50,957 bases of DNA from Actinomycetes bacterium. GTDB taxonomy: Bacteria > Actinomycetota > Actinomycetes > S36-B12 > UBA5976. The DNA lies in NCBI GenBank assembly GCA_021814565.1, contig JAKAIC010000003.1:1-50957 (forward strand). The letters run 5' to 3'. A program made the position numbers and the translations under genes. Numbering within the stretch: position 1 is the first letter of the stretch; each line of letters starts with the position of its first letter. This document shows, one piece after another, positions 30,593-36,188 of this stretch. The notes under the pieces were generated by a model. That model was given only the letters and a program-made list of their open reading frames with translations, searched no databases and had not been told where the DNA came from.

Positions 30593-32065
30593 ATGGCATT
30601 GCAGGCACTCGTCACCGGCGCCACCGGCTACGTCGGTGGCCGATTGGTCACACGCTTGCTGGAAGAGGGCTTCCGGGTGCGGGTCATGGCCCGCGATCCC
30701 GAGCGTCTGCGCGACTACCCCTGGATCCACGAGGTGGAAGCCGTGCGCGGCGATGCCGAGGATCCCGTATCACTGGAAGCGGCCCTGCACGGCATCGATG
30801 TCGCGTATTACATGCTGCATTCGCTCTCCGAGCACCACGGTTTCGAGACCATCGAAGCGCGCATGGCCAGCAACTTCGGTCAGGCCGCCAAGACGCAGCA
30901 GGTGAAGCGCATCGTCTATCTCGGCGGCATCACGCCCCCCAACACGCAGCTCAGCACCCATCTGGAGTCCCGTCGCAACACCGGTGCCCTACTGCGCGCA
31001 TCGGGAGTGCCCACCACGGAGTTGCGTGCCGCCGTCATCATCGGCTCGGGCAGCGCATCCTTCGAGATGCTGCGTTACCTCACCGAACGCCTGCCCTTCA
31101 TGATCACTCCGCGCTGGCTCAACAACCGCGTGCAGCCCATCGCCATCCGCGATGCCCTGCACTATCTGGTGAAGGCCGGGGAGGAAGCCGGCAACGAGAG
31201 CCACATCGGTGATATCGGTGGCCCCGACGTCATGCTCTACAGCGAGATGATGAAGCGTTATGCCAAGGTGGCTGGTCTACGTCCACGCACCATCGTCACC
31301 GTGCCCGTGCTCACGCCCAGGCTTTCCTCGCACTGGGTTTCCCTGGTGACCCCGGTACCGCGCCGGCTCGCACTGCCGCTCGTCGATTCTCTGGTCAACG
31401 AGGTGGTGGTGAACCCGGAACTCGATGCGCGCAACTTCCTGGCGGCGCCGGAGGACGGCCTGCTGGATTTCGCCACGGCCGTGGAATACGCACTGGACCG
31501 GGTGCGCAATCAGGACGTACTGACACGGTGGTCATCCGCATCGGTGCCGGGCGCACCGAGTGCACCGCTCCCGACCGACCCCGATTGGTCCGGAGGGACG
31601 CTCTACGTCGATCTGCGTGAGCGCAGCACGTCCGCCTCACCTGAGGCCTTGTGGCGGATCATCGAGGGTATCGGCGGCAGCAACGGCTACTACTCGGCCC
31701 TCTTCCTGTGGGAGATCCGCGGCCTGCTCGATCGCCTGGCGGGCGGTGTCGGACTGCGGCGTGGCCGCCGCGATCCCGACCACCTCTACGTGGGTGAGAC
31801 GGTGGACTTCTGGCGCGTTGAGCGCTGCGATCGCGGGCAGTTGCTGCGCCTGCGGGCGGAGATGCGCATGCCCGGCCTGGCCTGGCTCGAGCTCATCGTG
31901 GACCACGATGATGCCGGCAACACCGTGTATCGGCAGCGTGCCACCTACCGCCCGACGGGCCTGCTCGGTCACGCCTACTGGTGGTCGGTGGTCCCCTTCC
32001 ATGCCTTCGTCTTCGGGTCCATGGTGCGCCGCATCCCGGCAGCGGCGGAGCGCCTCGGCGGCTGA
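30593..32065 (+). CDS. NAD(P)H-binding SDR-type protein with C-terminal DUF2867 domain
   Basis: VTGATGYVGGRLVTRLLEEGFRVRVMARDPERL; C-term FLWEIRGLLDRLAGGVGLRRGRRDP, YRQRATYRPTGLLGHAYWW. Confidence 0.9.
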   Translation: MALQALVTGATGYVGGRLVTRLLEEGFRVRVMARDPERLRDYPWIHEVEAVRGDAEDPVSLEAALHGIDVAYYMLHSLSEHHGFETIEARMASNFGQAAKTQQVKRIVYLGGITPPNTQLSTHLESRRNTGALLRASGVPTTELRAAVIIGSGSASFEMLRYLTERLPFMITPRWLNNRVQPIAIRDALHYLVKAGEEAGNESHIGDIGGPDVMLYSEMMKRYAKVAGLRPRTIVTVPVLTPRLSSHWVSLVTPVPRRLALPLVDSLVNEVVVNPELDARNFLAAPEDGLLDFATAVEYALDRVRNQDVLTRWSSASVPGAPSAPLPTDPDWSGGTLYVDLRERSTSASPEALWRIIEGIGGSNGYYSALFLWEIRGLLDRLAGGVGLRRGRRDPDHLYVGETVDFWRVERCDRGQLLRLRAEMRMPGLAWLELIVDHDDAGNTVYRQRATYRPTGLLGHAYWWSVVPFHAFVFGSMVRRIPAAAERLGG

Positions 32066-32147: not shown

Positions 32148-32386
32148 CTAGGGCACGATCACCGCACGACCCCGTACCTTGCCCGCGTGCAGATCCGCGT
32201 AGGCCTTGGCAGCGTCATCCAGTGAGTAGCGCGTGGCCTCGGAGTGCACCAGGCCGCGTCCTGCCAGGTTGAGGATCTCGATGAGCTCCGGCCGTGATCC
32301 CCAGTAGGTCCCGGACCGGGAGTCGGCTTCGGCACCTCGACGAGTTGCGGATCGCTCTTCCACTTCATGATGCGTAGCGCACGCAT
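32148..32386 (-). pseudogene. MDR (zinc-type) alcohol dehydrogenase remnant with internal deletion
   Basis: N-term MRALRIMKWKSDPQLVEVPKPTPGPG, then frame switch into C-term GTYWGSRPELIEILNLAGRGLVHSEATRYSLDDAAKAYADLHAGKVRGRAVIVP*. Confidence 0.88.
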
Positions 32387-32494
32387 TTGCTCCATCCTTC
32401 CGGTGACGCAACCCTGCGCCACCCCTTCGCAGTGTTCGCGCAGGGCGGGTTGGCGAGAAGGGAACAACGACTCCCGCAGCCCTGCCCAACCATC

Positions 32495-32569
32495 CACGCT
32501 GTCGCAGCAGGAAGGCGTATCCGCACTGCCTGAGCAGCATGGATACGCCTTCTGGAGGTTGCAGCAGTG
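32495..32569. repeat. Long hairpin element, copy 2
   Basis: Core GGAAGGCGTATCC-N18-GGATACGCCTTCT; same 11-bp arms and loop length as 23054-23125; 8 nt past the heliorhodopsin stop. Confidence 0.85.
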
Positions 32570-32577
32570 AACGGTGC

Positions 32578-33360
32578 TCAGTTGGTGCTGGCGGCGAGCA
32601 CGCCGGCGAAGATCTGCCAGGCCAGCGCGCTCTTGGCCACGAAGCTGAGGGTGATGTACGTGCGCTCCCCCACCAGGTAGTCGCGCCAACGGCCCACCTG
32701 CTTGTACTGCAGCCACTGCACCAAGGCGAAGCAGTTGAAGAACAGGAACAGCGAGATGACGATGCCGTAGACGAAGCCCGGGGCATGGTTGCTGGCGCCG
32801 GGGGCGATGAGCAGCCAGAACATGGCGATCCACGGGAAGGCACCGGCGATGCAGCCGAACCAGAACGGCAGCATGCCGCCTGAGCCCGGCTTCTCGTACT
32901 TCTCCTGCAGCCAGCCGAACAGGATCATGGACACATTGCAGCCGATGATGCCGAGCAGGGCCACCAGGTTCCACACCGCGTTCACCATGGAGATGAGCAC
33001 GATCATGAGGGTTGAGGAGATGGCATATTCAACCCAGCGCGCGAGGTTCTGCTGTCGGGCCAGACCCGCGCCATATCGCGCGAAACCCGGGCCTACGATC
33101 CAGAAGTGCGCCGCGGCGCTGAGCAGCGAGAAGAGAGCAACGCCGTAGCCCATGCGAATGTCGAAGACATGCACCTGCTCGAAGCTGGCTCCCGGTGTCG
33201 GAGCACCGGTAAGGTAGTTGACGAAGACGGGCAGGGCGAAGCTGTTGGACAGGGCCAGGATGGCGATGGCCTGCAGCAGATGGAAGATGCCGGCGATGAG
33301 GTTGTAGCGACGCAGGCTGGCAAGTCTTGCAGCGGGAATGCTGGCGGTGCTGGTAGTCAA
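32578..33360 (-). CDS. Heliorhodopsin
   Basis: FHLLQA, AAAHFWI, RWVEYAISSTLMIVLI (counterion Glu), NVSMILFGWLQEKYEKP, LPFWFGCIAGAFPWIA, FVYGIVISLFLFFNCFALVQWLQY, and retinal Lys in SFVAKSALAWQIF; TTG start with GGAGG SD 5 nt upstream. Confidence 0.96.
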   Translation of the reverse strand: MTTSTASIPAARLASLRRYNLIAGIFHLLQAIAILALSNSFALPVFVNYLTGAPTPGASFEQVHVFDIRMGYGVALFSLLSAAAHFWIVGPGFARYGAGLARQQNLARWVEYAISSTLMIVLISMVNAVWNLVALLGIIGCNVSMILFGWLQEKYEKPGSGGMLPFWFGCIAGAFPWIAMFWLLIAPGASNHAPGFVYGIVISLFLFFNCFALVQWLQYKQVGRWRDYLVGERTYITLSFVAKSALAWQIFAGVLAASTN

Positions 33361-33559: not shown

Positions 33560-34030
33560 ATGGGCTACGCAGTCGACTTCCTGAACGTGTCCACGGTGGG
33601 CCTGGAGTCTTCGCCAATGGCCGCGGCACTGGCCGGGCTGCGCGCCAATGAGGCCCGCTACTTCAAGAACAAGTACGACCACACCTTCACCACCGAGCCG
33701 GCATCGTCAGCCAAGGCCAGGAAGCTCATCAGCTACGTGGCCAAAATCCTCAAGCAGGAACGTGACATCGTCATCGAGTCCCGGCCGCTGGAGGCCACAG
33801 AATGCAAGGTTGACGGCATCCGTTGGACTTACGTGTTCTATGAGAGCGGCCTGTCGATCAACGTGTTGTACACACTCGAGGACAAGGGCAAGCGGGCGGT
33901 CGGCTTCAAGCTCTCCGATGGCATGGACGTCCCTGCGGAGTTGGCGGAGAAGTTCAAGTTCGCCCGCCAGAAGTCAAAACTGGCTGGCACCATCCGTGGT
34001 TCCTTCTTCGTCATCAAGGGCGAGTACTGA
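33560..34030 (+). CDS. Hypothetical protein, divergent from heliorhodopsin
   Basis: Intact 156-aa ORF MGYAVDFLNVSTVGLESSPMAAALAGLRANEARYFKNKYDHTF... Confidence 0.7.
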   Translation: MGYAVDFLNVSTVGLESSPMAAALAGLRANEARYFKNKYDHTFTTEPASSAKARKLISYVAKILKQERDIVIESRPLEATECKVDGIRWTYVFYESGLSINVLYTLEDKGKRAVGFKLSDGMDVPAELAEKFKFARQKSKLAGTIRGSFFVIKGEY

Positions 34031-34570: not shown

Positions 34571-35209
34571 CTACTTGGCTACTGCAGAGAGCTCCGAGGT
34601 GACCAACCTGGCAGTGACGATATAGCGCTGCGGCGAGGGCCCGTAGTGGACGAAGGGATAGCAGGTGATCATGGTCAGCACCGCTGTCTTGGTGGGCGCA
34701 AGCACGGAGACGGCGGTGGGCTTCACAATGCGCGTGCCGGTGACCCGGTAGGTGAAGCGACCGTCATCGGTGCGCACGACGACGCGATCACCTATTGCCA
34801 GACGACCGAGCTTGTCGAACACCGTCTCGCGATGGCCGGCCAGCACTGTGTTGCTGGTGGCGCCAGGCATGGCTGTCCCCACCACGTGACCTACGCCCAG
34901 TCGCAGATCGGACATGCGCGTGCCCTGCACGATGGCCCACCGTTGGTTGAGGCTGGGCAGCCAGATGGCTCCGAAGGCCCTCCCCATGTGAGGTCGCGCC
35001 AGCAATGTCGCAGCATCAGACACGGAGGCGGGTGGCAGCCCTGATGGTGCGCGAAGCGCCGACAAGGGGGCCAGTGGCGGCAATGCGACACTGCTGACGC
35101 TGGCCTCCGCCTGTCGGATCTGCATTGTGGCCACGGTGAAGGTGACGGCGCCCGTGATGAGCAGGGCCGCCCCCGCCACCGTGAGCGCACGCGCCCGGAT
35201 GGCGGTCAT
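34571..35209 (-). CDS. Sortase, class D-like
   Basis: VLAGHRETVFDKLGRLAIGD; AVLTMITCYPFVHYGPSPQRYIVTARL (His/Cys/Arg triad; TCYPF..G..PQRYIV). Confidence 0.9.
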   Translation of the reverse strand: MTAIRARALTVAGAALLITGAVTFTVATMQIRQAEASVSSVALPPLAPLSALRAPSGLPPASVSDAATLLARPHMGRAFGAIWLPSLNQRWAIVQGTRMSDLRLGVGHVVGTAMPGATSNTVLAGHRETVFDKLGRLAIGDRVVVRTDDGRFTYRVTGTRIVKPTAVSVLAPTKTAVLTMITCYPFVHYGPSPQRYIVTARLVTSELSAVAK

Positions 35210-35213
35210 CGCA

Positions 35214-36188
35214 TCAACGGATACGACGACGGACCAGCAGTGTCACTCCACCAAGCAGCAGCAAGAGCAGGGCTACGGCCTGGATGTTGTACCAGGGCTC
35301 GGAGGTGTCAGGCAGCTGAGCGGTGGCGACTGGCGTGGGTGTCGGTGTCGGCGTCGGAGTCACCGTGGGTGTCGGAGTCACCGTGGGTGTCGGAGTCACC
35401 GTGGGTGTCGGAGTGGAGGTGGGCGTGACGGTTGCTGTCGGTGTCGGCGTCGGGGTGACCACAGCTGCGCAGGCACTGTTCGTGATGACGTTGGAATCCA
35501 GCGTCACCGCTCCCGAGCGCGCCAACAGGGAACCGTTGACGGTTGCACCGGTGGTGGCAGTGATCGAGGCCTGGGCCAGGATGTGGCCCGCGAAGTCAGA
35601 TGTGGTGCCCAGCGTGGCAGAGGTGCCAACCTGCCAGAACACGTTGCAGGACTGCGCACCATTGGCGAGCGCGACGTGACTGCCCGATGCGGTGATGAGG
35701 GTGGATCCCGCCTTGAAGATGAAGACCGCACTGGGATCACCGAGTGCGTCAAGCGTGACCGTGCCGGTGATGGCCAGTGTCGAAGCGTAGGAGTGGACAC
35801 CGGGCGTCAACGTGAGTCCGCCGATATCAGCAGGAATCAGCACAGCAGTGGTGGCGGGACGCGCCGCTGCATCGGTGAACGCTGCACTGAGGGCAACTTG
35901 ACCGGCCGCCGAGACCGCGTCAGCGGCGTGGAGGGTTCCGGCGATGCCGGGCGGGAATCCAGTGATGGCGGTACCGGGCGAGAGGCCGACGTCACCACCG
36001 GCAGTACCAGCGATGGTGGAGGAACCGGTGTTGGTGATGGTGCTTCCCGCGAGCACGGCGAAACTCTTGGCCGATCCAAGGTCGACAGTGGCGGTTGCTG
36101 CAGATGCGACTGTTGGGACGATCAGCAGGCCGGCGACCGCGATCACTCCGGCTAGCGACAATCCGCGCGCAATGTTCATGCGCTTCAT
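35214..36188 (-). CDS. Ice-binding (DUF3494) family protein with Pro/Thr linker and LPXTG-like sorting signal
   Basis: SAKSFAVLAGSTITNTGSSTIAGTAGGDVGLSPGTAITGFPPG; AVFIFKAGSTL; CNVFWQVGTSATLGTTSDFAGHILAQASIT; C-term AQLPDTSEPWY-hydrophobic-RRRIR. Confidence 0.94.
   Translation of the reverse strand: MKRMNIARGLSLAGVIAVAGLLIVPTVASAATATVDLGSAKSFAVLAGSTITNTGSSTIAGTAGGDVGLSPGTAITGFPPGIAGTLHAADAVSAAGQVALSAAFTDAAARPATTAVLIPADIGGLTLTPGVHSYASTLAITGTVTLDALGDPSAVFIFKAGSTLITASGSHVALANGAQSCNVFWQVGTSATLGTTSDFAGHILAQASITATTGATVNGSLLARSGAVTLDSNVITNSACAAVVTPTPTPTATVTPTSTPTPTVTPTPTVTPTPTVTPTPTPTPTPVATAQLPDTSEPWYNIQAVALLLLLLGGVTLLVRRRIR
35332..35460 (-). repeat. In-frame tandem repeat encoding the (TPTPTV) linker
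   Basis: 18-bp unit gtgggtgtcggagtcacc repeated, with degenerate flanking units. Confidence 0.85.

Follow-up and report, generated by a model that had tools for sequence, protein, structure and literature searches.

The window analyzed here, a 50,957-nucleotide stretch from the genome of a freshwater-type actinobacterium, carries an intact heliorhodopsin (HeR) gene whose product is probably a stand-alone light sensor or regulator, not a pump, charged with external retinal in a genus that appears to lack a retinal route of its own. Both genomes representing the genus retain HeR under purifying selection, and both appear to have lost phytoene synthase, type-1 rhodopsin, and the crt operon from the place where relatives carry it. 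The evidence also tilts, more mildly, toward the broader reading of a genus that gave up both carotenoid synthesis and type-1 rhodopsin while selection continued to maintain HeR. HeRs in organisms lacking retinal synthesis are already known from published work, and the window protein, taken alone, is an unexceptional addition to a family already described.

Identity and predicted structure of the heliorhodopsin

The original prediction described a 260-residue actinobacterial heliorhodopsin read from a TTG codon behind a GGAGG Shine-Dalgarno motif, and re-reading of the coordinates returned each of these features as described (Table 1). A second in-frame TTG, 22 codons upstream, is without support, and the homologous N-termini of relatives support the start given in the table. 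The translated protein matches PF18761 over the full length of the profile at 307.8 bits (cut-off 26.7) and the NCBIfam equivalog NF038020 'HeR' at 306.7 bits (cut-off 100); in a phmmer comparison with 48C12 HeR, the E value is 7.6e-86. Two of the checks proposed with the prediction, a profile search and a structural alignment to 48C12, agree: 48C12 HeR is the best solved-structure match to the AlphaFold2 model (pLDDT 91), with 57% identity, a TMq of 0.91, and an rmsd of 1.6 A. Type-1 (non-HeR) rhodopsins among the matches listed reach a TMq of at most 0.69. The model is predicted to contain the seven helices and the A-B loop β-hairpin of the HeR fold, the latter formed by strands 42-50 and 60-69. 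All tests run confirm a genuine heliorhodopsin (type-3 rhodopsin).

Table 1. Coordinates of the heliorhodopsin gene, its functional codons, and neighboring features within the window
Feature	Position	Strand	Remarks
HeR gene	32578-33360	-	260 aa; TTG start at 33360, stop 32580-32578
GGAGG, Shine-Dalgarno-like	~33370-33366	-	5-nt spacer to HeR TTG; read directly
Schiff-base Lys K243	32634-32632	-	48C12 K241
Counter-ion E111	33030-33028	-	48C12 E107
H27	33282-33280	-	48C12 H23
H85	33108-33106	-	48C12 H80
GC-rich hairpin, likely terminator	32508-32555 (approximate)	-	shortly past HeR stop
Apparent zinc alcohol dehydrogenase remnant	32150-32389	-	between SDR and HeR genes
SDR (NAD(P)-binding) + DUF2867 fusion	30593-32065	+	490 aa; convergent HeR neighbor
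Conserved 156-aa gene	33560-34030	+	divergent, upstream of HeR
Ice-binding-like protein (PF11999, 198 bits)	34574-36188	-	C-terminus resembling membrane anchor; adjoins sortase gene

The retinal-binding Lys, counter-ion Glu, and conserved His residues picked out in the original prediction all align with their 48C12 counterparts. The same is true of R108, E153, E232, S239, and W248 (R104, E149, E230, S237, and W246 in 48C12), and none of the catalytic or hydrogen-bond residues compared differs from 48C12, for which the network residues have been described (PMC9726877). S239 and K243 constitute the TM7 SxxxK motif characteristic of HeRs, and the counter-ion E111 is the expected Glu of TM3. Residues Q152, Q215, and A242 are the same as those at Q148, Q213, and A240 of 48C12, reported to be color-tuning positions (PMC7807009), and a 48C12-like absorption maximum, in the green/yellow, would therefore be expected. 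Charge distribution alone supports a cytoplasmic N-terminus, and thus inverted topology, with 12 Lys/Arg residues on cytoplasmic segments and 1 on extracellular segments in the N-in orientation. Two differences from 48C12 were noted: a conserved Gly is A128 in the window protein, and D127 is N131. The latter was considered as a functional difference and given no weight, because the same Asn occurs in the relatives G017 and G012 and D127 goes unmentioned in the hydrogen-bond network paper.

Distribution, phylogeny, and selection

The comparison set comprised 43 genomes of the bacterial family to which the window genome belongs (Ca. Nanopelagicales). Two of these represent the window genus, namely the window genome itself (G000; 1.995 Mb, 156 contigs, 97.7% complete) and G014 (89% complete). 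HeR is encoded in 39 of the 43. In a 107-sequence HeR tree, the window protein falls within a 12-row clade with 100/100 support, the members of which come from the same family or from contigs labeled Nanopelagicales/Nanopelagicaceae or Actinomycetota. Horizontal transfer from outside the order was rejected on this basis. The 48C12 HeR nests elsewhere in the tree, with sequences from g2, another genus of this family. Some family genomes contain a second, divergent HeR (G010:C81, G004:C9, and G019:C76) that is 34-39% identical to the window protein. A contig labeled Rubrivirga (Rhodothermota; L083 8001-8729) encodes an HeR identical to that of the Nanopelagicales MAG L082 and is probably mis-binned.

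The 43 alignment columns that are invariant in 105 other HeRs are all unchanged in the proteins from G000 and G014. Pairwise dN/dS values for the genus HeRs (pN/pS where dS is saturated) range from 0.14 to 0.32, showing that the gene in both crt-less genomes is intact and under purifying selection. Values for crt-bearing relatives are somewhat lower (0.05-0.15 where computable), so mild relaxation of constraint in the genus is possible.

Apparent loss of carotenoid and type-1 rhodopsin genes

Phytoene synthase, detected with the SQS_PSY profile, is encoded in 39 of the 43 family genomes and type-1 rhodopsin in 35. Neither was found in G000 or G014, as against 39 and 35, respectively, of the 41 other genomes, and these two are the only members of the set without both; a crtB match is missing also from G006 and G040, and type-1 rhodopsin from six further genomes. 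BCD/Blh (present in 4/43 genomes) and RPE65-type dioxygenase (1/43) were likewise not found in either genome of the genus. Each absence profile (phytoene synthase, BCD/Blh, RPE65) matched other family genomes, demonstrating that the searches work. The tested gene complement of G000, with no phytoene synthase, BCD/Blh, or RPE65-type dioxygenase found genome-wide, is that of a retinal auxotroph, which strengthens the earlier view that the retinal source must lie elsewhere than in the window. The genome search for blh and crt genes suggested along with that view was genome-wide for BCD/Blh and phytoene synthase; for CrtI, lycopene cyclase, and CrtE it covered the syntenic site, from which all three are absent in both genomes. 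Because both assemblies are fragmented, the case for absence of retinal genes is strong but not absolute.

The usual location of the carotenoid genes can be defined in relatives. The crt operon of G018 (crtE, crtI, crtB, crtYd, crtYc) abuts a thiE-thiO-thiG-PknB run, beyond which come DAHP synthase and PFK; thiE was assigned here by eye from sequence. The operon adjoins PknB or DAHP synthase in G028 and G015 and lies a few kilobases from DAHP synthase in G009. In both G000 and G014, the thiO-thiG-PknB-DAHPS-PFK block is intact and contiguous on one contig and contains no crt genes, which therefore appear to have been deleted from this site and not merely left unassembled. The gene run beyond the block is conserved between the two genomes.

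Gene neighborhood

HeR is probably monocistronic, given the divergent gene upstream and the strong hairpin past its stop codon. The orientation of the upstream gene leaves HeR without a co-oriented upstream partner, and no histidine kinase or other signaling partner was found next to it. The hairpin region (32495-32577) folds with an energy of -38.4 kcal/mol (z -3.9), and 0 of 200 shuffles were as stable. The structure is palindromic and perhaps bidirectional, has no clear T run, and was not among the results of a T-run-based terminator scan; a promoter scan yielded nothing above chance. The 156-residue protein encoded upstream has no Pfam or NCBIfam match, and an actinobacterial homolog that is 62% identical (L085 10039-9464) is encoded 2.6 kb from the L085 HeR. 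The C-terminal piece of the alcohol dehydrogenase remnant scores 23 bits against PF13602, a weak match under the cut-off. Farther from HeR, the PF11999 protein and its adjoining sortase possibly constitute a surface adhesion or ice-binding pair.

No photolyase adjoins the window HeR and, as originally predicted, neither photolyase nor carotenoid genes were found in the window. In the close relatives G017 and G012, HeR directly adjoins a DPRP photolyase-related gene, and the partnerless state in the window genome is therefore specific to its lineage. The DPRP gene was not found anywhere in G000 and is present in G014. The HeR loci of these two genomes were compared for shared gene order and none was found, so the gene may have moved or been re-acquired.

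The accompanying claim that the context does not directly support partner-based models is only half right: the convergent SDR-DUF2867 gene is, among relatives, repeatedly a neighbor of HeR, blh, and type-1 rhodopsin. Its product is 86% identical to the G014 copy and 80% identical to the G012 copy. The gene adjoins HeR in G033, with ~17 bp between them, and adjoins blh in G022 and G031. It lies near type-1 rhodopsin in G037 and G012, the latter on a contig that carries HeR at ~5 kb as well as the photolyase-related gene. Of 76 HeR loci from outside the comparison set, only 3 have this SDR gene nearby, namely L068 and the Acidimicrobiaceae loci L071 and L078. In G014, SDR-DUF2867 and HeR are on different contigs (C77 and C117).

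Proposed function and alternative explanations

In the proposed mechanism, HeR would be transcribed on its own and would act as the sole rhodopsin found in G000 and G014 after loss of the crt operon, phytoene synthase, type-1 rhodopsin and, in G000, the DPRP gene. With none of the tested retinal-synthesis genes found, HeR would have to obtain its retinal, or a retinoid, from an external source such as neighbors that make retinal. Light absorption would drive the conserved His/Glu/Arg hydrogen-bond network toward the cytoplasmic face, and HeR would then signal to a partner. The basis for a sensing function is the literature. PMC9296517, citing Shihoya 2019, describes rapid binding of external retinal by HeR through an opening and the use of HeR by organisms without retinal synthesis, and retinal auxotrophy is common among freshwater actinobacteria (PMC12422013). 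A cleavage enzyme of unknown type has been inferred for Aurantimicrobium minutum (PMC7734400). An unrecognized cleavage enzyme may also exist in the window family, because 38 of the 43 genomes have no recognized one. Any such enzyme would still need a C40 carotenoid precursor, and a genome without phytoene synthase should make none.

It is quite improbable that the carotenoid/retinal and type-1 rhodopsin genes are present and simply missing from the assemblies, the window bacterium being an ordinary retinal-competent member of the Nanopelagicales. The contig number of G000, the incompleteness of G014, and the baseline dropout of crtB or type-1 rhodopsin matches in other family genomes are all compatible with this explanation, but both losses are common to two genomes of one genus and co-occur nowhere else. 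Incompleteness alone would give a shared loss with a chance of ~0.003 for either gene and, if the two are independent, ~7e-6 for the pair. In both genomes, moreover, the assembly runs through the usual crt site, which is empty. A HeR that works without retinal, for instance by binding some other ligand or by serving constitutively as a scaffold or regulator in the membrane, would account for a gene kept under constraint where no tested retinal-synthesis gene was found, and published HeR partners do act via protein-protein contacts (PMC9529153, PMC11109279). Disuse of retinal should, however, relax the retinal-binding Lys, its counter-ion, and the conserved His residues, all of which are kept, and uptake of external retinal by HeR is documented (PMC9296517), making this explanation very hard to credit.

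A third possibility concerns output only and is compatible with retinal scavenging: instead of being a stand-alone sensor, HeR could form a light- or oxidative-stress response module with the neighboring SDR-DUF2867 protein as its partner. The recurrence of the SDR gene near HeR, in the family and in three distant loci, and near blh and type-1 rhodopsin points in this direction, as does the listing of 'SDR family oxidoreductase' among ten HeR-operon neighbor groups (PMC11109279). The two genes are nevertheless convergent here and separated by a degraded alcohol dehydrogenase fragment and a strong hairpin, and so do not form an operon. Their separation in G014 and the rarity of the association among the outside HeR loci also weigh against the module, which we regard as unlikely. 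A HeR sensor or regulator supplied with external retinal remains the favored reading.

Relation to known systems

The window HeR resembles 48C12 HeR, from an actinobacterial fosmid (PDB 6su3, 6su4, 6uh3), in identity over the aligned structure (~57%), predicted fold, all functional residues checked, and bacterial family. Besides the two substitutions noted above, there are phylogenetic and genomic differences: the window protein belongs to a separate, fully supported clade of 12 sequences, and most genomes around 48C12 carry crtB and type-1 rhodopsin, whereas the window genome has neither. TfHeR, AbHeR, and OcHeR belong to the same protein family and have photolyase, glutamine synthetase, or ABC transporter operon partners (PMC9769723, PMC9529153, PMC11109279). 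This arrangement has its likeness in the relatives G012 and G017, with HeR beside DPRP; no such partner is found beside the window HeR. Rhodoluna lacicola, Acidiparvus, and Saccharibacteria, for which external retinal has been proposed (PMC12422013, PMC11561045, PMC9296517), resemble the window genome in having a rhodopsin without a complete retinal pathway. Those cases involve type-1 rhodopsins, whereas the only rhodopsin found in the window genome is HeR, and the window genome differs further in that other genera of its family nearly all keep crtB.

Implications

The function of HeRs is still argued from gene neighbors and in vitro partners. Nearly every other genome of the family pairs HeR with type-1 rhodopsin and carotenoid synthesis, making their roles inseparable there, and a lineage in which HeR is intact and the other two are lost separates its role from theirs. 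If the proposed losses are real, HeR would have a fitness role independent of phototrophy, with scavenged retinal or none, and the genus would offer a naturally occurring case in which the function of HeR can be studied by itself. The proposal predicts that retinal supplied by neighbors would matter for the window bacterium.
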